Source: Cryomorphaceae bacterium
Lineage (GTDB): Bacteria; Bacteroidota; Bacteroidia; Flavobacteriales; Schleiferiaceae
Direction: 5' to 3'
Assembly (NCBI GenBank): GCA_021298655.1
Contig: JAJTFK010000013.1
Span: 1-51,387 of the forward strand
Length of the DNA: 51,387 nt
The notes below the pieces were generated by a model, which was not told the DNA's origin, did no database searches, and worked only from the letters and a program-made list of their open reading frames with translations. Positions 3,650-51,387 of this stretch are shown here, one piece after another; the stretch's first letter is position 1, and every line of letters starts with the position of its first letter. The translations under genes were made by a program, and so were the position numbers.

Positions 3650-4657
3650 CTACTCGTTGCCGTACAGCCAGCGTTCCGCGTTGGTTCGCAGCACTTTGAC
3701 CTTCACCGCGTCGGACCAGGGCATGCTCCGCACCAGTTCGCCCGGAACGTGTTCGCCCAGGGGATAGGGGTAGTCGGAGCCCACCGCAATTTTGTCTTCG
3801 CCGACCAAGCGCAGCAGGTTTTCGAGTGCGTGCGGGTCGTGCACCAGGCTGTCCACCCAAAATTTGCCCAGGTAGTCGGTTGGCGGAACGGCGTTGTCCA
3901 CCGCGACCAGGTCGGGGCGCACATCAAACCCGTGCTGGATGCGGCCCAGCGTGGCCGTAAAGGATCCGCCGCCGTGGGCAATAGCCACACGCAGCGCCGG
4001 GAGCCGCTCGAACACCCCACCAAAAATGAGCGAACACAGGGCCCGACTGGATTCCGCGGGCATGCCCACCAGCCAGGGAAGCCAGTACTTTTTCATGTCG
4101 CCGCTGCCCATCATGTCCCAGGGGTGCACAAAAAGGGCGAGTCCGCGCCGGGCCATCTCTTCAAAAACCGGAAAAAACGCCGGGTCGTCGAGGTTGCGCT
4201 GGTTGATGTTGGATCCGATTTGCACGCCGCGCAGGCCCAGCCGCTCGATGCGGTCGAGTTCGCGGAGCGCCAAGTCGGTGTCCTGCATGGGCAGGGTTCC
4301 GAGGCCCTCAAAGCGCGTCGGGTTGCCCGCCACCACCTCGGCCAGGTGGTCGTTTAAAAACTCCGCCACCGCGGCCCCGTCGCGGCCGGGCGTCCAGTAG
4401 CTGAACATTACGGGCACGGTCGACAGCACCTGCACCCCCACCCCGTGGCGGTCGCAGTCGTGGATTCGCGCCGCCGGATCCCAGTTGTTGGCCTCGATTT
4501 CGCGAAAGAGCACGTCGTCCTTCATCATGCGCGCGCAGCCCGGACAGTGGTGCTCGAGGCGAACGAATCCGCCGTAGCCAAACCGCTCGGCAAAGGGCGG
4601 AATATGCTCCGGGATGAGGTGGGTGTGGATGTCGATGGGCGCGGGCAGCGAATTCAT
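3650..4657 (-). CDS. 2-amino-3-carboxymuconate-6-semialdehyde decarboxylase (ACMSD)
   Basis: 335 residues of the amidohydrolase superfamily, ACMSD-like. The N-terminal zinc motif is DIHTHL (His11, His13); further ligands are expected in [20 protein letters not shown] and [11 protein letters not shown]. The reaction removes the carboxylate from the ring-opened product of NbaC, giving 2-aminomuconate semialdehyde and steering flux away from quinolinate. The ATG at 4657 starts [14 protein letters not shown]; longer starts run through the promoter region. A weak TATCTTCG box sits at 4685-4692 on this strand. Related amidohydrolases can be misnamed, but the neighbour NbaC makes ACMSD by far the best reading. 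Confidence 0.93.
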
Positions 4658-4718: not shown

Positions 4719-6599
4719 ATGTGCGGCATTGCCCTTCTGCGCCTGCGCAAACCCCTAGACTACTACCTCGACGAGCACGGGACGGCCCTTTACGGCCTCA
4801 ACAAAATGGTGCTCATGATGGAAAAGCAGCACAACCGCGGCCAGGACGGCGCGGGGCTCGCGGGGGTGAAGCTCGACATGCCCCCGGGGCAGCGCTACAT
4901 CAGCCGCTACCGCTCGACCGACCCGAAGCCGATTCAGGACATTTTCACGCGCATCCAAAACCGCATCGAGGAGCGCATCGCCGGCAAGCCCGAGCGCCTC
5001 AAGGACGCCGCCTGGGTCAAAGAAAACGTGGCCTTTGCCTGCGACGTCTACCTGGGCCACCTGCGCTACGGAACCTACGGCGGAAACAGCATCGAGGCCT
5101 GCCACCCGTTCTTGCGCCAGTCCAACTACATGAGCCGCAACCTGCTCGTGGCCGGCAACTTCAACATGACCAACGTCGACGAGCTGTTTGACGAGTTGGT
5201 GAACCTGGGTCAACACCCCAAGGAGAAGGCCGATACGGTCACGGTGATGGAGAAAATTGGCCACTTCCTCGACAAGGAAAACCGCCGCCTGCACCAGATT
5301 GCCAAAGACGAGCTCGGCCTGAATAAAATCGAGCGCAGCCAGTACCAGGCCGACCACCTCGACCTGCCCCGTGTGCTTGAGAAGGCCAGCCGCGACTGGG
5401 ACGGCGGCTACGCCATGGGCGGCATCATCGGCCAGGGCGACGCCTTCCTGCTGCGCGACCCCCACGGCATTCGCCCGGCGTTCTACTTCGTCAACGAAGA
5501 CGTCGCCGTGGTTGCCTCGGAGCGCCCCGTGATCCAGACGGCCTTTGGTGTGACCGAGGACGAAGTCCACGAAGTGCCGCCCGGCCACATGGTCTGGATT
5601 CGCCGCAACGGCGACGTGTCGGTGGTTCCGGTGCGCCCCGCTGCCCCACGCGCCGCCTGCAGCTTTGAACGCATCTACTTTTCTCGGGCCAACGACGGGG
5701 CCATTTACCGCGAACGCCTGGAACTCGGACGCCGCCTCACCGACCGCGTGATGGCCGCCGCCGGAGGCGATTTTGACCGCACCGTGTTCAGCTTCATTCC
5801 GAACACCGCCGAAATCGCCTTCTATGGATTGGTCAAGGGCGCCGAAGACGCCCTCAAGCGGGAAAAGTCCGCCCAGCTCGTCGCCAAGGGCAGCGCCATC
5901 ACGCCCGCCGACATTGAGCAGGTGATGACCGCCCGTCCGCGCGTCGAAAAAATCGCCTGGAAGGACGTCAAGCTGCGCACCTTCATCACCGAGGATTCCA
6001 GCCGCAACGACATGGTGGCCCACGTCTACGATTCGACCTACGGCATCGTGCAGCCCGACGACAGCATTGTGGCGATCGACGACAGCATCGTGCGCGGAAC
6101 CACGCTCAAGCAGAGCATCTTGCGCATGCTGGACCGCCTGAATCCCAAGCGCATCGTGGTCGTCAGTTCGGCCCCGCAAATCCGCTACCCCGACTGCTAC
6201 GGCATCGACATGGCCAAAATGGGCGACTTCATCGCGTTCCAGGCCGCCGTTTCGCTGCTGCGCGAGCGCGGAATGGATTCCGTCCTCGACCAAGCCTACG
6301 CCGACGCCAAGGCCGAACTCGCCAAGCCCATGGAGGCCCAGCGCAACGCCGTGCAGGCCGTGTACGCGCCGTTCAGCGACCAGGAACTCAGCGACCGCAT
6401 CGCCCAGCTGCTCACCCCCGTCGGAACCCGTGCCGAGGTCAAGGTCGTGTACCAGACCGTCGCCGACCTTCACGAGGCCTGCCCCGATTCGCCGGGCGAC
6501 TGGTACTTCACGGGCAACTACCCCACGCCGGGCGGAACCCGGGTCGCCAACCGCGCCTTCGTGAACTACATGGAGGGCAAGACGGGCCGGGCATACTAA
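4719..6599 (+). CDS. Long amidophosphoribosyltransferase-like (PurF paralogue) protein
   Basis: 626 residues. It starts [10 protein letters not shown], so removal of Met leaves the Cys nucleophile of class II glutamine amidotransferases. The glutaminase half has NRGQDGAG and [10 protein letters not shown]; the phosphoribosyltransferase half has the PRPP loop [13 protein letters not shown]. It is about 120-150 residues longer than ordinary PurF, with insertions near 55-105 and 170-260. Where PurF has HNGNLTN, this protein reads AGNFNMTN, so the Asn of the NG oxyanion pair is missing. Long paralogues of this kind are known in Bacteroidota, usually named amidophosphoribosyltransferase; whether it makes phosphoribosylamine is unproven. 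The next gene, a cobalamin adenosyltransferase, follows after 43 bases. Confidence 0.85.
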
Positions 6600-7548: not shown

Positions 7549-10500
7549 ATGCTTGACAAGATTTTAAAGGTTTTTTTGGGTGATCCGTCGCAGCGCACGC
7601 TGAAGGAGATCCAGCCCTACATCGACCAAGTTCACGCTGCCGAACAGGCGCTGGCTGGCCATTCCGACGCCGAACTCCGCGCCGAGACGGCCGCGTTCCG
7701 CGCACGCCTTCGCACCGAAACCGAAGCCAAAACCCTCGAACGCGACCAGCTCAAAACCGAGGCCGAAGCCGAGGCCGACGTCGACCTCAAAGAGGCCCTA
7801 TACCGCCAAATCGACCGCCTCGACCAAGACATTTTGGCCGACGAAGAGCAGATCCTCCTGGAAATCCTTCCCAAGGCCTTTGCCGTGCTGCGCGAAACCG
7901 CGCGCCGTTTGGCCAACGGCCCGCTCCGCGTACCCGCCCAAGATTGGGACCGCGAGCTGGCGCCCCGCCTCGACGCCGTGACCCTCGACGGCGACACCGC
8001 CGTGTGGAACAACCGCTGGCTGGCCGCCGGCAACGAGATCACCTGGAACATGGTCCACTACGACGTTCAGCTTTTTGGCGGCGTCGTACTGCACAAAGGC
8101 CGCATTGCCGAGATGGCTACCGGAGAAGGTAAAACCTTGGTGGCTACCCTGCCGGTCTACCTCAACGCCTTGAGCGGACGCGGCGTGCACGTCGTGACCG
8201 TGAACGACTACCTGTCGAAGCGGGACTCCGAATGGATGGGCCCCCTCTACCAATTCCACGGGCTGAGCGTGGAGTGCATCGACAAGCACCGCCCCAACAC
8301 CGAGGCGCGCCGCCAAGCCTACCTCGCCGACATTACCTTCGGAACCAACAACGAGTTTGGCTTTGACTACCTGCGCGACAACATGGCCCGCGAAACGGCC
8401 GAGTTGGTGCAGCGCGGTCACCACTACGCCATTGTCGACGAGGTCGACTCCGTCCTGATTGACGACGCGCGGACGCCGCTCATTATCAGCGGACCGACGC
8501 CCAACGGCGACCAGCAGGAGTTCGACTACCTAAAGAATTTTGTGGTCGGACTGGTCAACCAGCAAAAAACCGTGGCCCAAGACGCGCTGACCAAGGCCAA
8601 AGAGGCCCTTGCCGCCGGGGACAAAACCGAGGCGGGATTCCAGCTGCTTCGCTCGCACCGCGCCCTGCCCAAAAACAAGGCGCTCATCAAGTTTTTGTCG
8701 GAAGACGGCGTGAAGGCGCTGCTCCAAAAGACCGAGGGCGTCTACCTCCAGGACCAAGGCAAGGAGATGAAAAAGATCGACGAAGCCCTGTACTTCACGA
8801 TCGAAGAGAAGCACAACCAAGTGAACCTCACCAACTTGGGCTTGGGCTACTTGGCTGAGCAGACGTCGACCGACTTTTTTGTGTTGCCCGTGATTTCGGT
8901 CGAGCTTGACCGCATCGAAAAAGCCCACGACGACGTGGCCGAGCGTGCCGCACGCAAGGATCAATTGATGCGCGAATACCGCGCCAAAAGCGAGCGCATT
9001 CACAGCACCAACCAGCTGCTCAAAGCCTACGCCCTGTTTGAAAAAGACGTGGAGTACGTGGTCATGGACGGCAAAGTCAAAATCGTCGACGAGCAGACGG
9101 GCCGCATCATGGACGGCCGCCGCTACTCCGACGGACTGCACCAAGCCATCGAGGCCAAAGAAGGCGTGACCATTGAGGCCGCGACGCAGACCTACGCAAC
9201 CATTACGCTGCAGAACTACTTCCGCATGTACCACAAGCTTTCGGGCATGACCGGTACGGCCGAAACCGAAGCGGGCGAGTTCTGGGAAATCTACAAGCTC
9301 GAGGTTACCGTGATTCCGACCAACGTGCCGGCCAAGCGCGAAGACCGCAACGATCTGGTTTTCAAGACCAAGCGCGAAAAATACAACGCCGTCATCGACG
9401 AAATCGAGAAGCTGCGCGAAGCCGGACGCCCCGTGCTCGTCGGCACCACCTCGGTCGAGATTTCGGAGCTGCTCAGCCGCACGCTGAACATCCGCAAGAT
9501 TCCGCACCAAGTGCTGAACGCGAAGCTGCACCAGAAAGAGGCCGACATCGTCGCCGAAGCCGGGCGCCCCGGAACGGTGACCATCGCCACCAACATGGCT
9601 GGCCGCGGTACCGACATCAAACTCACCCCCGAGGCGAAGGCCGCGGGCGGACTCGCCATCATTGGCACCGAGCGCCACGATTCGCGCCGCGTCGACCGCC
9701 AGCTGCGCGGACGCGCCGGACGCCAGGGCGATCCGGGTTCGTCGCAGTTTTTTGTTTCGCTCGAAGACAACCTGATGCGCCTTTTCGGCTCGGAGCGCAT
9801 CGCCAGCCTGATGGACCGGATGGGCCACAAGGAAGGCGACGTGATCGAGCACTCGATGGTTACCAAGAGCATCGAGCGCGCCCAGAAGAAGGTCGAAGAA
9901 AACAACTTCGGCAGCCGCAAGCGCCTGCTCGAATACGACGACGTGATGAACGCCCAGCGCAGCGGAATCTACCGCCGCCGCCGCAATGCCCTGTCGGGGG
10001 AGCGCCTCGCGTTGGACCTCGCCAACAGCGTGTACGACGCCGCCGAAGCCCTCGTAGGCGGAACCAAGCCCAGCCGCGACTTTGGTGCGTACGAACTCGG
10101 CTGCTTCGAGAACTTCGCCATGCCGGCACCGGTCGACCATGCGGAGTTTGAACGCCTCAACGCCCACGAGCTCACCCTAAAAACCTATGGGGCCGCCCAG
10201 GCCGCCTACCGAGCCAAGTGCGAGCGCATTGCCCTCCAGGCGCTGCCGGTGCTGGAAAACGTGCTGCGCGAGCAGGGCGGCCAGTTCCAGAACATTTTGG
10301 TTCCGTTCACCGACGGCATCAAGTCCATTCAGATCCCGACGAACCTGCAGCGCGGGGTCGACAGCCGCGGGCAGTCACTGAGTACCGACCTCGAGAAGGC
10401 GATTGTGCTCAGCATGATTGACGAGCACTGGAAGGAGCACCTGCGCAATATGGACGACCTGCGCCAAAACGTGCAGGGCGCCGTGTACGAGCAGAAGGAC

Positions 10501-17654: not shown

Positions 17655-18665
17655 ATGAAGGCCTCCCTTGACCCCTATTTCGATGCGTTTTTGGATCCCG
17701 ATGCTTTGGCGATTCGCTACGCGGAACTGGCCCCATCGCTCCACCGAACGCCGGTGCTGCGTTCCGCCAGTTTGGACGCTTGGGCCGGAGCCGCGCTGCA
17801 TTTGAAGTGCGAGAATTTCCAGCGGTCTGGGGCGTTCAAGATGCGGGGCGTGTCCAATGCGTTGCGGGAGCTGGCGAGTCACGGGCTCCCGGCGGGCGGG
17901 GTCTGCACCCACTCATCCGGGAACCACGGCCAAGCCCTGGCCTGGGCCTCGGGTGGGCTGGGGATTCCCTGCACGGTGGTGATGCCGAGCAACGCGCCGC
18001 AGTTTAAAAAGGATGCGGTTCGCGCGGCCGGCGGGCGTATTGTGGAGTGTAGGCCGACGCTGGCCGCGCGCATCGAGGCGGTTGCCGAGGTGGTCCGGGC
18101 CACGGGCGCGGTGGAAATCCATCCGTCGAACCAGGCGCCGGTGATTTTGGGCCAGGGCTCGGCCGCGTGGGAGCTGCTCGAAGACTGCGCCGCCCGGGGC
18201 ATCGCCTTGGACTGGGTGGGCGTTCCGGTGGGCGGAGGCGGCTTGTTGGCCGGAACGGGCTTCGCGGTGGCCCGCTGGAATCAGCGGCACGGAACCCGCG
18301 TGCGCGTGTTCGCCGGCGAACCGTCCGGCGCGGACGACGCGGCACGCAGCCTCGCTTCGGGCCAAATTGAGCACAACGACAACCCCCAAACGGTCTGCGA
18401 CGGCATGCGCACCGAACTGGGCGACGTGAATTTTCCCGTCATCCGCGAAACGGTCACCGCGATTTACCCCGTCGACGATTCCGAGATTTTGGTCGCCCAG
18501 CGCCTGATTGCGGACCGCGTCAAAATCATCGTGGAAACCAACTGCGCGCCGCCCGTAGCCGCGGTGGCCAAGCATCTTTCGGTGTTTTCCGGACAGCAGG
18601 TAGGCGTCGTCCTTAGCGGCGGAAACCTAGACCTGAGCGCGCATGCTTGGGGTCCGGCGAATTAG
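17655..18665 (+). CDS. Threonine/serine dehydratase (PLP fold type II)
   Basis: 336 residues. The PLP lysine lies in SGAFKMRG; phosphate binding is by SSGNHGQA and GGGGLLAG, and the C-terminal SGGN is kept. It deaminates threonine or serine to 2-oxobutyrate or pyruvate; a serine racemase activity is also possible in this branch. There is no C-terminal ACT domain, so it is the short, catabolic type rather than the isoleucine-inhibited biosynthetic enzyme. A GAACTTTG box (17642-17649) lies five bases ahead of the ATG. It is preceded by the candidate small RNA on the same strand. Confidence 0.9.
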   Translation: MKASLDPYFDAFLDPDALAIRYAELAPSLHRTPVLRSASLDAWAGAALHLKCENFQRSGAFKMRGVSNALRELASHGLPAGGVCTHSSGNHGQALAWASGGLGIPCTVVMPSNAPQFKKDAVRAAGGRIVECRPTLAARIEAVAEVVRATGAVEIHPSNQAPVILGQGSAAWELLEDCAARGIALDWVGVPVGGGGLLAGTGFAVARWNQRHGTRVRVFAGEPSGADDAARSLASGQIEHNDNPQTVCDGMRTELGDVNFPVIRETVTAIYPVDDSEILVAQRLIADRVKIIVETNCAPPVAAVAKHLSVFSGQQVGVVLSGGNLDLSAHAWGPAN

Positions 18666-18747: not shown

Positions 18748-19170
18748 ATGTCTGCTGAATCGAATACGCCCCAGCCCGTGGGAAGCTACCCCGCGACGCG
18801 CCGTGTGGGCAATCTGCTGTTTATTTCCGGAATGGGCCCGCGCTTGCCCAAGAGTCCTGCGGCGGCCAGCTCCGTGCCGGGATTGCGCCTGGACGCCAAC
18901 GGGAACTATTTGGAATTCAGCTTCGAAGACCAAGTTCACAGCGTGATGGCCAACGTGAAGTCCGCCCTCGAAGAGGCCGGTGGCCGCTGGGACCAACTGG
19001 TCGACATCACCGTCTTTTTGACGGACATGAAGCGGGATTTTGCCGCCTTCAACCGCATCTACGCCGAGTATTTTGCCGACGTTGACCCCAAACCCTGCCG
19101 CACTACGGTTCAGGTTACGGCGCTTCCGACCCCCATCGCGGTGGAGCTTAAATGCATTGCCGCGCTATGA
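18748..19170 (+). CDS. Rid family protein, probable 2-aminomuconate deaminase
   Basis: 140 residues. It has the Rid fold and the conserved Arg (CRTTVQV) that binds the substrate carboxylate. Its features GSYPATRRVGNLLFISGMGP and DITVFLTDMKRDFAAFNRIY resemble the 2-aminomuconate deaminases (NbaF/AmnD group) more than housekeeping RidA. That would place it two steps after ACMSD in the same kynurenine route, although the genes are 14 kb apart here. A general enamine/imine deaminase remains possible. Its stop overlaps the ileS start (ATGA). Confidence 0.82.
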   Translation: MSAESNTPQPVGSYPATRRVGNLLFISGMGPRLPKSPAAASSVPGLRLDANGNYLEFSFEDQVHSVMANVKSALEEAGGRWDQLVDITVFLTDMKRDFAAFNRIYAEYFADVDPKPCRTTVQVTALPTPIAVELKCIAAL

Positions 19171-19415
19171 GTGCGCACTTTACCGAACGCGGACCGCTGA
19201 ATTTGCCGGAAATCCAGCGCGAAGTCCTGGACTACTGGAAGGCCGAAGACGTTTTTAAGCAATCGCTGCGCGACGGAGCCCCCTCGTTTGTGTTTTACGA
19301 GGGTCCGCCCTCGGCCAACGGAATGCCCGGCATCCACCACGTAATGGGCCGCGCCATTAAGGACCTTTTTTGCCGGTACAAGACCCAAAAAGGCTTCCGC
19401 GTCGAGAAGCCGTGA
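19167..19415 (+). CDS. ileS: Isoleucyl-tRNA synthetase, N-terminal fragment (gene broken)
   Basis: 82 residues: start MSAHFTERGPLNLPEIQREV, the class I signature region GPPSANGMPGIHHVMGR (HIGH-like), then FCRYKTQKGFRVEKP and TGA. In intact enzymes the sequence after KGFRV continues with a conserved GWDTHGLP segment and about 40 more residues; here these are gone and the frame changes. The start overlaps the rid stop. This fragment alone cannot be a working synthetase. See the downstream fragment for the rest. Confidence 0.85.
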   Translation: MSAHFTERGPLNLPEIQREVLDYWKAEDVFKQSLRDGAPSFVFYEGPPSANGMPGIHHVMGRAIKDLFCRYKTQKGFRVEKP

Positions 19416-22378
19416 TGCGCTACACCGACGTGTGGAACCGCCTGACGGAGCAAATGGGCTACTGGGTGGACCAAGAAAACCCCTACGTCACCTACACGAC
19501 CAAGTACATGGAGTCGGTGTGGTGGCTTCTGGGGCAACTTCACGGCAAGGGATTGCTGTACAAGGGCTACACGATTCAGCCCTATTCGCCCAAGGCCGGA
19601 ACGGGCCTGAGTTCCCACGAGCTCAACCAGCCCGGCTGCTACCGCGACGTGACCGACACCTCCGTTACCGCACAGTTCGCGCTGGTCGCTGGCGACCAAA
19701 GCCGTGCGCTTTTTGGCGACCGTGCCGTGCACATCTTGGCCTGGACCACCACGCCCTGGACGCTGCCGTCGAACACGGCCTTGACCGTGGGACCGAACAT
19801 CGAGTACAGCTTGATTGCCACAACGAACCCCTACACGGGCCTCGAGGTCAACGTTGTGCTGGCCAGCGCGCTGGTCGCCAACTACTTCAAAGCCGAAGAA
19901 GAAGGCGGAACGTGGACCCGCGTGGCCGCAGTGAAGGGTGCGGACATGGTGGGCCTGAGCTACGAACAGCTGCTGCCCTATGCCCTGCCGTACCAAGACG
20001 CCGATCGGGCGTTTCGCGTGATTCCCGGTGATTTTGTCACCACCGAAGACGGAACCGGCATTGTGCACACTGCGCCCACGTTTGGGGCCGACGACGCCCG
20101 GGTGGCTGCGGCGGCCGGAGTTCCGCCCATGCTGGTGCTGGACGCCGAGGGCAACCCCGTTCCGCTGGTGGACCTGCAGGGCCGATTTGTGGCGCAGGCC
20201 GGTCCCCTCGCGGGCAAGTACGTGAAAAACACCTACTACGACGCCGGCCAGGAGCCCAAGCTGAGCGTCGACGAAGAGATCGCCATTCAGCTCAAGACCG
20301 ACAACAAAGCCTTCAAGGTGCAGAAGTACGTGCACAGCTACCCGCATTGCTGGCGCACCGACAAGCCCGTGCTCTACTACCCGCTGGACAGCTGGTTTAT
20401 TCGGAGTACCGCGGCCAAGCAGCGCCTTCAGGAGCTGAACACCACCATCAACTGGAAGCCCGCCAGCACCGGCACCGGCCGTTTTGGCAACTGGCTTGAG
20501 AACCTGAACGACTGGAACCTCAGCCGCAGCCGCTACTGGGGCATTCCGTTGCCCATTTGGCGCAGCGAGGACGGCCGCGAAGAGGTCTGCATCAGCTCAT
20601 TGGAGCAGCTCCGCGCCGAACTCGAGCGCAGCGTGGCCGCCGGTCACATGGCGACCAACCCCTTGGCTGGGTTTACGCCCGGCGACATGTCGGATGCCAA
20701 CTACGCCGGGGTCGACCTGCACCGCCCGTTCGTGGACGATTGGGTGCTCACGGGGGCCAGCGGTCAGCCGCTTTATCGCGAAAAAGACCTGATCGACGTA
20801 TGGTTTGACTCGGGCGCCATGCCCTACGCCCAGGTGCACTACCCCTTCGAAAACAAGGAAGCCATCGACGGGCGCACCGCCTTCCCCGCCGACTTCATCG
20901 CGGAGGGCGTGGACCAGACGCGCGGATGGTTTTTTACCCTTCACGCGATCGCCGGAATGGTGTTCGATTCGGTCGCCTATAAAACCGTGGTCTCCAACGG
21001 ATTGGTCCTCGATAAGAATGGCCAAAAGATGTCCAAGCGCTTGGGCAACAGCATCGATCCCTTTGAGGCGATGGCGCAGTACGGAAGCGACGCCCTGCGC
21101 TGGTACATGCTCACCAACGCCCAACCCTGGGACAACCTCAAGTTTGACCCCGACGGCGTGACCGAAGTGCAGCGCAAGTTTTTCGGAACGCTGCACAACA
21201 CCTACGGGTTTTTTGCGCTCTACGCGAATGTCGACGGATTTGACCCCAAGGCACCGCAGGTTCCGCTTGCGGACCGAGCCGAACTGGACCGCTGGATACT
21301 GAGCCGCTTGCACAGCGTGGTCGCCGAAGTCAACGAGGCCATGGATGCCTACGAGCCAACGCGGGCGTTCCGCCCTGTGGCGGATTTTGTCGTCGACGAG
21401 CTCAGCAACTGGTACGTGCGCCTGAGCCGGCGCCGATTCTGGAAGGGTGCCATGGGCGACGACAAGCTGGCCGCATTCCAAACGCTTCACGAGTGCCTCG
21501 ACACGGTGGCCCGCTTGATGGCGCCGCTCGCGCCGTTTTACGCCGAGCAGCTGTACCGCGACCTCAACGGACCCGCGAACTCGGTGCACTGGAGCCGCTT
21601 CCCCGAGGCGAATGCCGCGCGCATCGACGCCGACCTCGAGCGCCGCATGGACTTGGCCCAGCGCATGACCAGTCTGGTCCTTAGCGTGCGCAAAAAAGAA
21701 AAGGTCCGCGTGCGCCAGCCCCTGCCCCGCATCGTGGTTCCCGTACTCAACCCAACCCAGCACCGCGACCTGGACGCCATCGAGGAGCTCCTGCTCGGCG
21801 AAGTCAACGTCAAGCACCTGGAGCGCGTGGAACCCAACTCCGGACTGTTTGTACAGCGGGCCAAACCCGACTTTAAAGCACTAGGACCGAAAGTTGGACC
21901 CCGCATGAAAAGCGTTTCAACCGCCCTCGCGGCGCTGACCGACACGCAGTTGCGCGACCTCGAGCGCGACGGCCAACTGACGCTGCAACTCGCCGACGGC
22001 CCCTACACGGTGGACCCCGGCGACGTGCTCGTGGTAACCGACGACATTCCGGGCATGGCCGTGGCCAGCGAGCGCGGAACCTTGCTCGCCGTCGACCTGC
22101 AGCTCAGCGCCGAACTGCTGGAAGAAGGCTTGGCTCGCGAGGCCGTAAACCGAATTCAAAACCTGCGCAAAGACAGCGGATTGGAGATCACCGACCGCAT
22201 CCAACTCTGGATTTCGGGAGCAAGCGAGGCCCTTAAGGCCGTGGCGGCCCACCGCGACTACGTAGCAGCCGAAACCCTGGTGGCGGCGTGGGGCGAAGGT
22301 TCCGCGCCGGGCGATGCCCACCGGGTCGATACCGACCTCGAGGGCCTGAGCGTAACCCTTTCGTTAAAAAAAGCCTAA
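19415..22378 (+). CDS. ileS: Isoleucyl-tRNA synthetase, main fragment (gene broken)
   Basis: 987 residues in a different frame from the N-terminal fragment. It resumes at MRYTDVWNRLTEQMGYWVD, with homologous sequence a few codons earlier (REAV). It includes the editing domain, a KMSKR signature (21026-21040), the anticodon-binding domain and a full C-terminus (ending TLSLKKA). Together the two parts lack about 41-42 residues including GWDTHGLP. Loss of about 124 bp (a number giving remainder 1 on division by 3) explains both the gap and the frame. ileS is normally essential, so a sequence/assembly error or a second copy elsewhere is likely; a true lesion is less so. Confidence 0.9.
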   Translation: MRYTDVWNRLTEQMGYWVDQENPYVTYTTKYMESVWWLLGQLHGKGLLYKGYTIQPYSPKAGTGLSSHELNQPGCYRDVTDTSVTAQFALVAGDQSRALFGDRAVHILAWTTTPWTLPSNTALTVGPNIEYSLIATTNPYTGLEVNVVLASALVANYFKAEEEGGTWTRVAAVKGADMVGLSYEQLLPYALPYQDADRAFRVIPGDFVTTEDGTGIVHTAPTFGADDARVAAAAGVPPMLVLDAEGNPVPLVDLQGRFVAQAGPLAGKYVKNTYYDAGQEPKLSVDEEIAIQLKTDNKAFKVQKYVHSYPHCWRTDKPVLYYPLDSWFIRSTAAKQRLQELNTTINWKPASTGTGRFGNWLENLNDWNLSRSRYWGIPLPIWRSEDGREEVCISSLEQLRAELERSVAAGHMATNPLAGFTPGDMSDANYAGVDLHRPFVDDWVLTGASGQPLYREKDLIDVWFDSGAMPYAQVHYPFENKEAIDGRTAFPADFIAEGVDQTRGWFFTLHAIAGMVFDSVAYKTVVSNGLVLDKNGQKMSKRLGNSIDPFEAMAQYGSDALRWYMLTNAQPWDNLKFDPDGVTEVQRKFFGTLHNTYGFFALYANVDGFDPKAPQVPLADRAELDRWILSRLHSVVAEVNEAMDAYEPTRAFRPVADFVVDELSNWYVRLSRRRFWKGAMGDDKLAAFQTLHECLDTVARLMAPLAPFYAEQLYRDLNGPANSVHWSRFPEANAARIDADLERRMDLAQRMTSLVLSVRKKEKVRVRQPLPRIVVPVLNPTQHRDLDAIEELLLGEVNVKHLERVEPNSGLFVQRAKPDFKALGPKVGPRMKSVSTALAALTDTQLRDLERDGQLTLQLADGPYTVDPGDVLVVTDDIPGMAVASERGTLLAVDLQLSAELLEEGLAREAVNRIQNLRKDSGLEITDRIQLWISGASEALKAVAAHRDYVAAETLVAAWGEGSAPGDAHRVDTDLEGLSVTLSLKKA

Positions 22379-22405
22379 AGGGCTTGTATGGGCGACCATA
22401 TTGTT

Positions 22406-22413
22406 TAAATTCG
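22406..22413 (+). promoter_or_regulatory. Promoter of the DksA-like/lspA unit
   Basis: TTG at 22384-22386, 19 bases, then TAAATTCG (22406-22413; one mismatch to TAnnTTTG), ending eight bases before the ATG at 22422. It lies in a locally AT-rich gap behind ileS. Confidence 0.45.
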
Positions 22414-22421
22414 GCCTTCTT

Positions 22422-22799
22422 ATGGAACCAACTGTACGCTATTCCGACGCCGAACTCGAGGAGTTTAGGACGTTAATTCAGTCAAAAATTGACAAGGCTG
22501 ATGAAGATTTGCGCATCCTTAAGGAGCAGTTTACCAACAACATGGATAACGGCACCGAGGATACCGCGCCGATGTTCAAAAGCTTCGAAGAGGGCTCCGA
22601 AACCATGAGCAAAGAGGCCAACGCCATGCTCGCGGCTCGGCAAGAAAAATTCTTGCGCGACCTCAAGGCCGCCCTGGTGCGCATCAGCAACAAAACCTAT
22701 GGGGTGTGCCGCGTCACCGGCAAGCTCATTGAAAAAGAACGCCTCAAGCTGGTTCCGCACGCGACAACCAGTATGGAAGGCAAGCTTCGCAAGCATTGA
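22422..22799 (+). CDS. DksA/TraR family protein with degenerate zinc finger
   Basis: 125 residues: a charged coiled-coil N-terminal part (ELEEFRTLIQSKIDKADEDL) and the C-terminal DksA-type globular region. The C4 zinc finger is not intact: the region reads YGVCRVTGKLIEKERLKLVP with one cysteine only. Cysteine-poor DksA-like proteins are usual in Bacteroidota. The family binds RNA polymerase in the secondary channel; that this member does so is inference. The stop overlaps the lspA TTG start, a conserved pairing. A TTG at 22401 is a less likely start because it precedes the promoter box. Confidence 0.88.
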   Translation: MEPTVRYSDAELEEFRTLIQSKIDKADEDLRILKEQFTNNMDNGTEDTAPMFKSFEEGSETMSKEANAMLAARQEKFLRDLKAALVRISNKTYGVCRVTGKLIEKERLKLVPHATTSMEGKLRKH

Positions 22800-23428
22800 A
22801 CCGACTGCGCAAGCCGTTGATGCTCGCCCTGGTGCTGATCGCCGCCGATCAGGCACTCAAAATCGCCATTAAAACCCAGTTCGCCTTGGGCGATTCGGTG
22901 GAGCTTTTGCCGTGGTTCCAGCTGCACTTCACCGAGAACCCGGGCATGGCCTTTGGCCTCAACTGGGGCGGAGCCGCCGGAAAGGTGGTCCTCAGCCTGT
23001 TCCGTATCGCGGCCATCGGCGGCATTGTGTGGTACGCGGTTCACTTGGCCAAAAAGGGCGCGCACCCCTTTGTGCTCACCACCCTCGCGCTGATTTTTGC
23101 CGGTGCCCTCGGCAACGTGCTCGACAGCTTGTTCTACGGCCTGCTGTTTGACCGCGGCCTGGTTTGGTCGCCCGAATACGAATTCTGGATGGCCTACGAC
23201 GGCGTCGCCCAGTGGGGCGGTGGCTACGCCGCTCCCCTCCTGGGCAACGTGGTTGACATGCTCTACTTCCCGCTTTGGACGGGCTACTTGCCCGAGTGGC
23301 TGCCGTTTTGGGGCGGAGATTATTTTCAGTTTTTTCGACCGATTTTTAACTTGGCCGACGCCTACGTGACCGTGGGCGTGGTCTTTTGGTACCTCGCGAG
23401 CCGCCGACCCGAATGGTGGCCCACCTAA
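22796..23428 (+). CDS. lspA: Lipoprotein signal peptidase
   Basis: 210 residues with four membrane helices. LspA cleaves prolipoproteins ahead of the lipidated cysteine in the inner membrane. The catalytic aspartates are expected in GNVVDMLYFP and in FNLADAY; FTENPGMAFG is the conserved N-terminal box. It is longer than the proteobacterial enzyme because of an insertion around WMAYDGVAQWGGGYAAP, common in Bacteroidota. It starts with TTG at 22796 inside the preceding stop (TTGA). Lipoproteins in this window (DUF4292, DUF4837, GldH) would be its substrates. Confidence 0.95.
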   Translation: MNRLRKPLMLALVLIAADQALKIAIKTQFALGDSVELLPWFQLHFTENPGMAFGLNWGGAAGKVVLSLFRIAAIGGIVWYAVHLAKKGAHPFVLTTLALIFAGALGNVLDSLFYGLLFDRGLVWSPEYEFWMAYDGVAQWGGGYAAPLLGNVVDMLYFPLWTGYLPEWLPFWGGDYFQFFRPIFNLADAYVTVGVVFWYLASRRPEWWPT

Positions 23429-23442
23429 CCCACAGCTCCCTT

Positions 23443-24825
23443 ATGCGCACCCTCTTTTGGGCATTCTGCCTTACGTCCCTTGCGGCCTCAGCCCAGTTGG
23501 CCCGACATGCTTCGCCCGCGGTGGCCGAACAACTTTACGTCCACGAACGCTACCTGGCGAGCGACGAACTCGGCGGACGCTTGCCCGGCAGCGAAGGCGG
23601 GGCCGAAGCGGCTGCCTACATTCAAAACGCGTTCCGCCAGATGGGCCTCAGTCCGCTTTTTGACGAGCGATTCACCCAAGAGGTGAAAATCCCCGATGCG
23701 GCCAAGGTTTCGTCCGCAACCAACTACATGGTGGTGGGTAAAGACAGCGTGCGCCTCACCGCGTCCTTCTGGCCGAGCACCCTGTCGAGCAACGGAACGG
23801 TCGCCGCCAAGTTGGCCTGGATTGGCTACGGACTGCCCGCCGAAGTGGCCGCGTTGCCCAAAGGGAGCATCGCCGTGCTCGTGCGCGACCTGCCCAAGGA
23901 TGCCGCCGCCAAGGCCGGCAAAGCTGGCGCGCTCGCTTTACGCGTTTCCGCCGCCCAAAGAGCCGGTGCTGCTGGGGTAATCGTCCTCGCGCCGGTCAAC
24001 GGAGCCCCGCGGCTCGACCTGCTTCGCCGCACCCGTCCCGTGGGGATTCCCGTGGTTGAGGTGCACGACGTGAAGTGGGCCAAGCGCCTGGCCAAGTCCG
24101 CCAAAAAAGGCAAAGCCGCCAACCTGGCCACCGAGATTGTTGCCCAGCAAATCACGGCCCCCAACGTCGGTGCCTGGCTGGACCGCGGCAAGCCCCGCAC
24201 CATCGTTATTGGCGCCCACTACGACCACGTTGGCCTTGGTGCCTGGGGATCGCGCAAGCCCGAGCTCGCCGGACAGGTACACAACGGCGCCGACGACAAC
24301 GCCAGCGGAACCAGCGTGCTCCTGACCTTGGCGCAGATGCTGGCCAAAGTGCCCTCGCTGGGCGACGCCAACTTGGCCTTTGTGGCCTTCACCGGCGAAG
24401 AAAGCGGGCTTCTGGGCTCCAAAGAATTCGTTGAAACCATCCCCGCGCCCCTGGGCAAGGTGACGACGATGCTCAACTTGGATATGGTGGGCCGACTCAA
24501 CCGCTCGGACTCCCTTCGCGTGTACGGCGTGCACACCGCTCCGGAATTCCAGCAAATGCTCGAAACCATTCCCGCCGACGGCTTCTACTGGGACCTTCGC
24601 AACGAAATTTTTGGCCGGTCGGACCACGCTCCCTTCATTCAAAAGGGCATTCCTGCGGTGTTCTTTTTCACCGGATTGCACGAAGACTACCACGCGCCGG
24701 GCGACGACCTCGAGAAGATTGATCTCGACGGCATGGCGGCGGTAACCGAGGCGGCGGCGGCCTTTATTCAGCTCTTGGCCAACAATGCTCCGCCCACGTT
24801 TAACCCGGAATCCTCAAAGGACTAA
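23443..24825 (+). CDS. Exported M28 family metallopeptidase with PA insertion
   Basis: 460 residues. Signal peptide MRTLFWAFCLTSLAASAQ, then an inserted PA-like domain (about 110-235) and the M28 zinc aminopeptidase core. Zinc ligands and the catalytic acid are visible in GAHYDHVG, GADDNASGTS, TGEESGLLGS, LDMVGR and SDHAPF. It probably trims peptides in the periplasm or outside. The start at 23443 is chosen for the signal peptide; it is 14 bases after lspA. The stop overlaps the gpsA start (TAATG). Confidence 0.93.
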   Translation: MRTLFWAFCLTSLAASAQLARHASPAVAEQLYVHERYLASDELGGRLPGSEGGAEAAAYIQNAFRQMGLSPLFDERFTQEVKIPDAAKVSSATNYMVVGKDSVRLTASFWPSTLSSNGTVAAKLAWIGYGLPAEVAALPKGSIAVLVRDLPKDAAAKAGKAGALALRVSAAQRAGAAGVIVLAPVNGAPRLDLLRRTRPVGIPVVEVHDVKWAKRLAKSAKKGKAANLATEIVAQQITAPNVGAWLDRGKPRTIVIGAHYDHVGLGAWGSRKPELAGQVHNGADDNASGTSVLLTLAQMLAKVPSLGDANLAFVAFTGEESGLLGSKEFVETIPAPLGKVTTMLNLDMVGRLNRSDSLRVYGVHTAPEFQQMLETIPADGFYWDLRNEIFGRSDHAPFIQKGIPAVFFFTGLHEDYHAPGDDLEKIDLDGMAAVTEAAAAFIQLLANNAPPTFNPESSKD

Positions 24826-39635: not shown

Positions 39636-40370
39636 CTAGGCCCCGAGCAAACGGTCCGCGGGCGTGGCCACCAAGTCCACGTCAAAGAGGCGCGCAAAAT
39701 GTGCGGCGACCCGTTCCTTGACCTCGGCCTCGTCGACGCTCCGCCCCAGCTCCCGATGGAGCGACGTCACGGCCTTGTCCTTGATTCCGCAGGGAATAAT
39801 GTACTCGAAGTAGCGCAGGTCCGTGTTGAGGTTGAAGGCCCAGCCGTGCATGGTCACCCAGCGCGATGCCCGAACGCCCATCGCACAAATTTTGCGGGCA
39901 AAGGGAGTGCCGACGTCGAGCCAGACGCCCGTCTCGCCGGGACTTCGGTCGCCGCTCAAGCCGTAGTCTGCGAGGGTCGCGATGATGACCTCTTCGAGGG
40001 TGCGCAGGTAGCGGTGGATGTCGGTAAAGTATTCGTCGAGGTCCAAAATCGGGTAGCCCACCAGCTGGCCGGGGCCGTGGTAGGTGATGTCGCCGCCGCG
40101 GTTGGTCCGGAAAAACTCCGCGTTGATGGCCTTGAGCCGCTCGCCGTCGGCGAGGAGGTTGTCCAGGTCGCCGCTCTTGCCCAGCGTGTAGACGTGGGGG
40201 TGCTCGACGAACAGCAGGGTGTCCTCGGTCGGAATCCGCTCGTCCTCGGGAAGCTTGCGGTTCGACGTCTTGCGGTCAACGACCTTGGTAAAAATGGCTT
40301 CTTGAAGGTCCCAGGCCTCGCGGTAGGTCACGTTCCCCAGGTCGGCAAAGCGAACGGCGCGGCGGCTCAT
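39636..40370 (-). CDS. lipB: Octanoyl-[acyl carrier protein]:protein octanoyltransferase
   Basis: 244 residues. The active-site Cys lies in IIPCGIKDK and the Lys in FARKICAMGVR; GGDITYHGPGQLVGYPILDL and VTMHGWAFNLN are diagnostic. LipB moves octanoyl from ACP to the lipoyl domains of 2-oxoacid dehydrogenases and the glycine cleavage H protein, the first step of lipoate synthesis. A 2-oxoacid dehydrogenase E1 end lies at the right edge of the window. The start at 40370 overlaps the isomerase stop (ATGA). Confidence 0.95.
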   Translation of the reverse strand: MSRRAVRFADLGNVTYREAWDLQEAIFTKVVDRKTSNRKLPEDERIPTEDTLLFVEHPHVYTLGKSGDLDNLLADGERLKAINAEFFRTNRGGDITYHGPGQLVGYPILDLDEYFTDIHRYLRTLEEVIIATLADYGLSGDRSPGETGVWLDVGTPFARKICAMGVRASRWVTMHGWAFNLNTDLRYFEYIIPCGIKDKAVTSLHRELGRSVDEAEVKERVAAHFARLFDVDLVATPADRLLGA

Positions 40371-51210: not shown

Positions 51211-51387
51211 TCAACGCTTCCAGCGCTCCCCGCACCTTGTCCGCGTTGGGCAGGTAGGTGTATTCCAGCGTTTTATTCAGGGGAATCGCGGGGGTGTCTT
51301 CGGCGCCCAGCACCCGAACGGGCGCGTCGAGGGCGGTGAAGCACTCCTCCTGAATGCGCGCGGCAATCGAGCGCGCAAAGGGCTGTA
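51200..51387 (-). CDS. 2-oxoacid dehydrogenase E1 component, C-terminal end only
   Basis: The last 61 residues of a gene entering from the right. The sequence includes ARIQEECFTALDAPVRVLG and EDTPAIPLNKTLEYTYLPN, the usual end of E1 beta or of fused E1 alpha/beta proteins, forming the end of the transketolase C-terminal domain. The substrate (pyruvate, branched-chain or 2-oxoglutarate) cannot be told from this part. Confidence 0.8.
   Translation of the reverse strand, partial: QPFARSIAARIQEECFTALDAPVRVLGAEDTPAIPLNKTLEYTYLPNADKVRGALEALISY

Follow-up and report, generated by a model that had tools for sequence, protein, structure and literature searches.

The analyzed window is a stretch of 51,387 nucleotides from a draft genome of a Cryomorphaceae bacterium, and it carries ileS, the gene for an IleRS2-like isoleucyl-tRNA synthetase, at 19167-22378 on the forward strand. 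The neighboring genes on the same strand are intact and have unbroken matches in congeners. Upstream, a Rid-family (L-PSP) gene at 18748-19170 (PF01042, and TIGR00004 below its curated cut-off) overlaps the start of ileS by 4 bases, and downstream a DksA/TraR-type zinc-finger gene (PF01258) is followed by lspA (NF011369, lipoprotein signal peptidase, over cut-off) within 22401-23428. The ileS gene itself is read in two pieces. The 5’ part (19167-19402) matches positions 2-64 of PF00133 (E 1.6e-12), and its frame (19167-19415) yields 82 residues that end in FCRYKTQKGFRVEKP before a TGA at 19413-19415. From 19403 a shifted frame reads REAVMRYTDVW and continues free of stops up to the stop codon at 22376-22378; this 3’ part of 991 amino acids plus stop matches PF00133 at 105-412, Anticodon_1 and DUF5915, and by itself exceeded the TIGR00392 (ileS) cut-off of 621.4 bits with 815.3 bits. 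The two frames confirm the description of the gene in an earlier note as 82 residues ending at a TGA, with REAV and MRYTDVW following in a different frame. Positions 65-104 of the PF00133 profile are absent, and with the frame switched at the joint there is no continuous frame across the ileS catalytic domain in the window.

We compared the joint at the DNA level with 20 congeneric ileS loci, 14 of which matched both of its sides; one of the other six (L131) stops at a contig end and five (L022-L026) are too diverged for a match on both sides. All 14 matching loci have exactly 124 extra bases relative to the window at 19403-19405 (+), and their frame stays open through F(R/K)V(D/N)...NAAC. The earlier note had proposed that about 124 bp, including the GWDTHGLP region, was missing and that 8 bases separated GTC (19401-19403) from GTG (19412-19414); we counted exactly 8, and the congeneric loci sharpen the loss to exactly 124 bp. 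The lost segment, GWDTHGLP included, spans 41 codons and 1 further base, hence the change of frame. The bases CGA at 19403-19405 are compatible with either flank, giving a 3-base overlap at the joint. When up to 3 mismatches were allowed, the joint pattern was found in one of 22 genomes of the genus, namely this draft, and is private to this assembly in that set; with this draft the sole genome of its species among those searched, a joint present throughout the species would be compatible with the result.

Across a wider set, an ileS frame of at least 1,116 amino acids was present in 33 of 39 other genomes. Contig ends interrupt the gene in five of the remaining six; the sixth (G018, completeness 84%) gave only a weak match of another synthetase. 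We considered whether ileS might be a hotspot for contig ends and dropped the idea, as five congeners with contig ends inside the gene is about the expectation from contig counts (hand estimate). The sequence on either side of the joint is close to that of congeners: 19179-19405 is 88.5% identical in DNA to congener G017, and the 3’ part is 91-92% identical to G017 and to G020. A chimaera of two species at the joint was likewise rejected, since both flanks share their nearest congeners at 84-89% DNA identity and we saw no sign of mixed origin.

IleRS2 is the usual type of isoleucyl-tRNA synthetase in this phylum. Along nearly the full length of its intact ileS product, congener G020 gives matches to solved isoleucine--tRNA ligases, the best being 8c8w (residues 14-1071 of 1,109), which is presumably an IleRS2, its match naming only isoleucine--tRNA ligase. 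The segment lost from the window is present in 8c8w, the only solved relative displayed at the level of single residues. The class I signature motif can be read from the window at 19329-19340 (+) in the swapped form GIHH (GXHH in place of HXGH), and the same four residues occur in all 14 translated congeneric loci. In excerpts of one report, the swapped GXHH motif of some IleRS2 enzymes is tied to mupirocin hyper-resistance (PMC10485003). The window gene is like the bacterial IleRS2 described in excerpts of two papers (PMC4861432, PMC10485003) in its TIGR00392, PF00133 and Anticodon_1 matches and its GIHH signature, but unlike them the window copy is without 41 codons of the catalytic fold, which the intact congeners keep. 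The GWDTHGLP string was not found in the literature matches to it.

A deletion that was real would contradict the expected need for the lost part of the enzyme. A species carrying it would have to use a two-piece synthetase without the GWDTHGLP segment, or to charge tRNA-Ile by other means, and we regard this as very unlikely. The first of these possibilities supposes that ileS is truly split yet working, with the lost segment either dispensable or supplied in trans. As such an arrangement would have it, the two printed pieces are conserved and show no other damage, but they lie in different frames and the segment is present in 14 of the 14 aligned congeneric loci as well as in 8c8w. We also searched with a 55-residue query over the lost part, which was not found in the draft beyond 13 residues to the right of the joint; the same query is present in 11 of 12 other genomes, the one miss being G018, which shows no ileS. 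A piece supplied in trans was dropped on this result, and a working split enzyme is barely credible.

We evaluated selection on the printed pieces by comparison with G017. The dN/dS was 0.061 for the 3’ part, with a dS near 0.9 that is close to saturation, and 0.090 for the 5’ part; intact pairs range from 0.03 to 0.16 over both parts. Judged from these ratios, the rest of ileS shows strong purifying selection. Gene decay leading to a real pseudogene was rejected on the same grounds, as we found no relaxed selection, no damage besides the one joint, and dN/dS values within the range of intact pairs. A real loss that happened very recently would leave the same picture in dN/dS, and selection alone does not decide the matter.

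The selection result also bears on the possibility of a fixed deletion with an intact ileS located either on an unbinned replicon or in the portion of the genome that was not assembled (about 3%, going by estimated completeness). The draft comprises 1,603,178 bases in 45 contigs and is 97.22% complete with 0.04% contamination, so a contig may be missing. Against this, the printed copy is under purifying selection of the same strength as its intact relatives, there is no sign of decay besides the one joint, and none of the genomes compared has a second full-length ileS match. A search of the 1.6-Mb, 97%-complete draft with the TIGR00392 profile found no second ileS, giving no support to the second copy that the earlier note had offered as an alternative. 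The other TIGR00392 matches in the draft, on contigs C42, C39, C30 and C2, fell below the cut-off, and from frame length we take those on C42, C39 and C30 to be the valine, leucine and methionine enzymes, respectively. An intact copy hidden outside the draft is highly improbable.

We examined whether the draft contains other losses of this kind by comparing about a quarter of it (405,790 of 1,603,178 bases, ~25%) mainly with G020 and partly with G004, G010, G001, G019, G007 and G012. The sample consisted of the window, the whole of C42, C39 (which contains one long N run) and C30, and the first 77 kb of C3 and C14; the contigs were picked for synthetase or aminotransferase genes and not for any break. 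Over the 276,907 bases that aligned to G020, a single script applied to both sides found nine abrupt gaps of at least 30 bp with bases missing in the draft and none with bases missing in G020 (sign test by hand, 0.004 two-sided). The window had been selected for its break, and without it the count is 8 versus 0 (sign test, 0.008). Six of the nine gaps lie inside G020 frames of at least 120 amino acids; without the window this becomes 5 versus 0, which is not significant alone (0.06). Gaps of 15-29 bases were seen in both directions. Among matched places, 10 of 190 in the draft’s own contigs and 13 of 299 in the congeners’ contigs were flagged as split. The split rows that we left out were mostly upstream, non-coding portions of frames defined from stop to stop, the ileS and C42 breaks copied in antisense, and N runs; rows with a net difference of 1-2 bases on either side were also left out of the counts.

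Besides the 124 bp of ileS, the in-gene losses affect five genes, and the frame is broken in all but one. On C42, a PLP-dependent aminotransferase gene near 39998 (L157) is short of 76 bp and an inositol-monophosphatase-family gene near 5651 (L155) is short of a total of 52 bp, a 35-base part of which entered the script's count; both genes are whole in congeners. The aminotransferase bases are present in 8 of 10 congeneric loci (L208-L213, L215 and L217), with no match at L214 and L216. The inositol-monophosphatase-family bases are present in the six of nine congeneric loci that align across the gap (L188-L193); L195 and L196 gave no DNA match, and the partial match at L197 ends short of it. 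On C3, rlmH near 51343 (L230) lacks 75 bp in frame, with its family matched through the lost part (PF02590), a TamL-like gene near 24619 (L229) lacks 214 bp and scores 398.3 against a family cut-off of 400, and a frame of 1,026 amino acids near 67113 (L231) lacks about 167-170 bp. Natural variation may account for the three gaps that are not clearly in genes, which lie on C39 near 26128 (among intergenic repeats), on C3 near 34776 and on C14 near 15491. For the cases on C3, C14 and C39, G020 was the sole comparison genome, and an insertion in G020 would give the same picture, though for rlmH the family match through the lost part speaks against one.

The draft also contains a gap that is marked by Ns and wrongly sized. 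On C14, the N run at 9903-9965 (L232) holds 63 N against 211 bases in G020, inside an open frame of 1,453 amino acids, and is thus too short by 148 bases. C30 has one run of 44 N; the 36-base difference seen in that contig is an N run, and we left it out of the counts. Short N runs occur in other drafts of the genus as well: we counted six in the stretches of G004 and two in that of G019, against none in the stretches of G020. Contig C53 of G004 has 61 N in place of 39 window bases near window 4132-4172, and the resulting 22-bp difference, being an N run in G004, was also left out; G019 (L143) has 54 N for 144 window bases near window 24695. As the N gaps of G004 and G019 are also mis-sized, poor sizing of gaps is not peculiar to this draft.

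On these comparisons of sequence, the break in ileS is very probably an artefact of the draft’s assembly, and the most fitting view is that it belongs to a class of joins closed silently in the draft and is not a feature of the organism. The earlier note had considered an assembly or sequencing error most likely, and the other silent losses together with the mis-sized N gap, set against the lack of any gap of at least 30 bp on the G020 side, support that view. We suggest that 124 bases within an intact ileS were left unassembled and that the flanking ends were joined directly on a chance 3-base overlap, with no Ns kept between them. Such a joint would have arisen during scaffolding or gap closing and not from a read that carried the deletion. 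If a gap were given a size of zero or less and then closed without N, the outcome would be an abrupt loss whose ends overlap by chance over one or a few bases. The gene ileS is normally essential, presumably in this organism as well, and the living organism would be expected to carry an ordinary full-length enzyme.

The 3-base overlap could also point to a real deletion allele, carried by some of the sampled population or by some DNA molecules, which the assembler chose over the intact allele. Overlaps of this kind are often found at short deletions between microhomologies, and the printed joint may rest on real molecules. By a hand calculation, about 5% of random joints should have an overlap of at least 3 bases, so the evidence from it is weak, and in unrelated genes of the draft, losses of that size class have overlaps of about 1 base (by reading). 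Charging of tRNA-Ile would not be expected in cells with only the deletion allele. A mixed population is not needed to explain the break, given the other silent internal losses and the mis-sized N gap in a draft compared with a genome, G020, that has no such loss of at least 30 bp; we consider the deletion allele improbable. Two further ideas on how the bases were lost were abandoned. A hairpin in the lost segment, as a cause of slippage or poor sequencing, found no support in four relatives (z-scores -0.75 to 0.36). SPAdes-type assemblers use k values of 127 and 77, and the ileS and aminotransferase losses give these sums when their overlaps are added (124+3=127; 76+1=77), but alignment of the relatives by hand puts the 52-bp case at 53, 54 or 56 and not at 55.

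If the break is an artefact of assembly, it has no biological import and serves as a caution only. The draft is rated 97.22% complete, yet six genes in the sampled quarter, as compared with one congener, are without a stretch and carry no N warning. Because the losses are silent, absent motifs and ‘pseudogenes’ in this draft are not to be taken as biology. Excerpts of one study document spurious broken genes arising from assembly, in greater number at low coverage (PMC11017572). The case described here is alike in that a conserved gene reads as broken where the organism would be expected to have it whole, and in that there are several breaks per assembly. It differs in that the study (PMC11017572) counts internal stops and frameshifts in general, whereas the present draft, which has N gaps as well, shows abrupt losses of 52-214 bp. 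Elsewhere in the window, comparison with other congeners showed differences, left out of the counts, of 85-367 bases near 18651, 29732, 35573 and 36998, each with 27-58 unaligned window bases and none of them abrupt.
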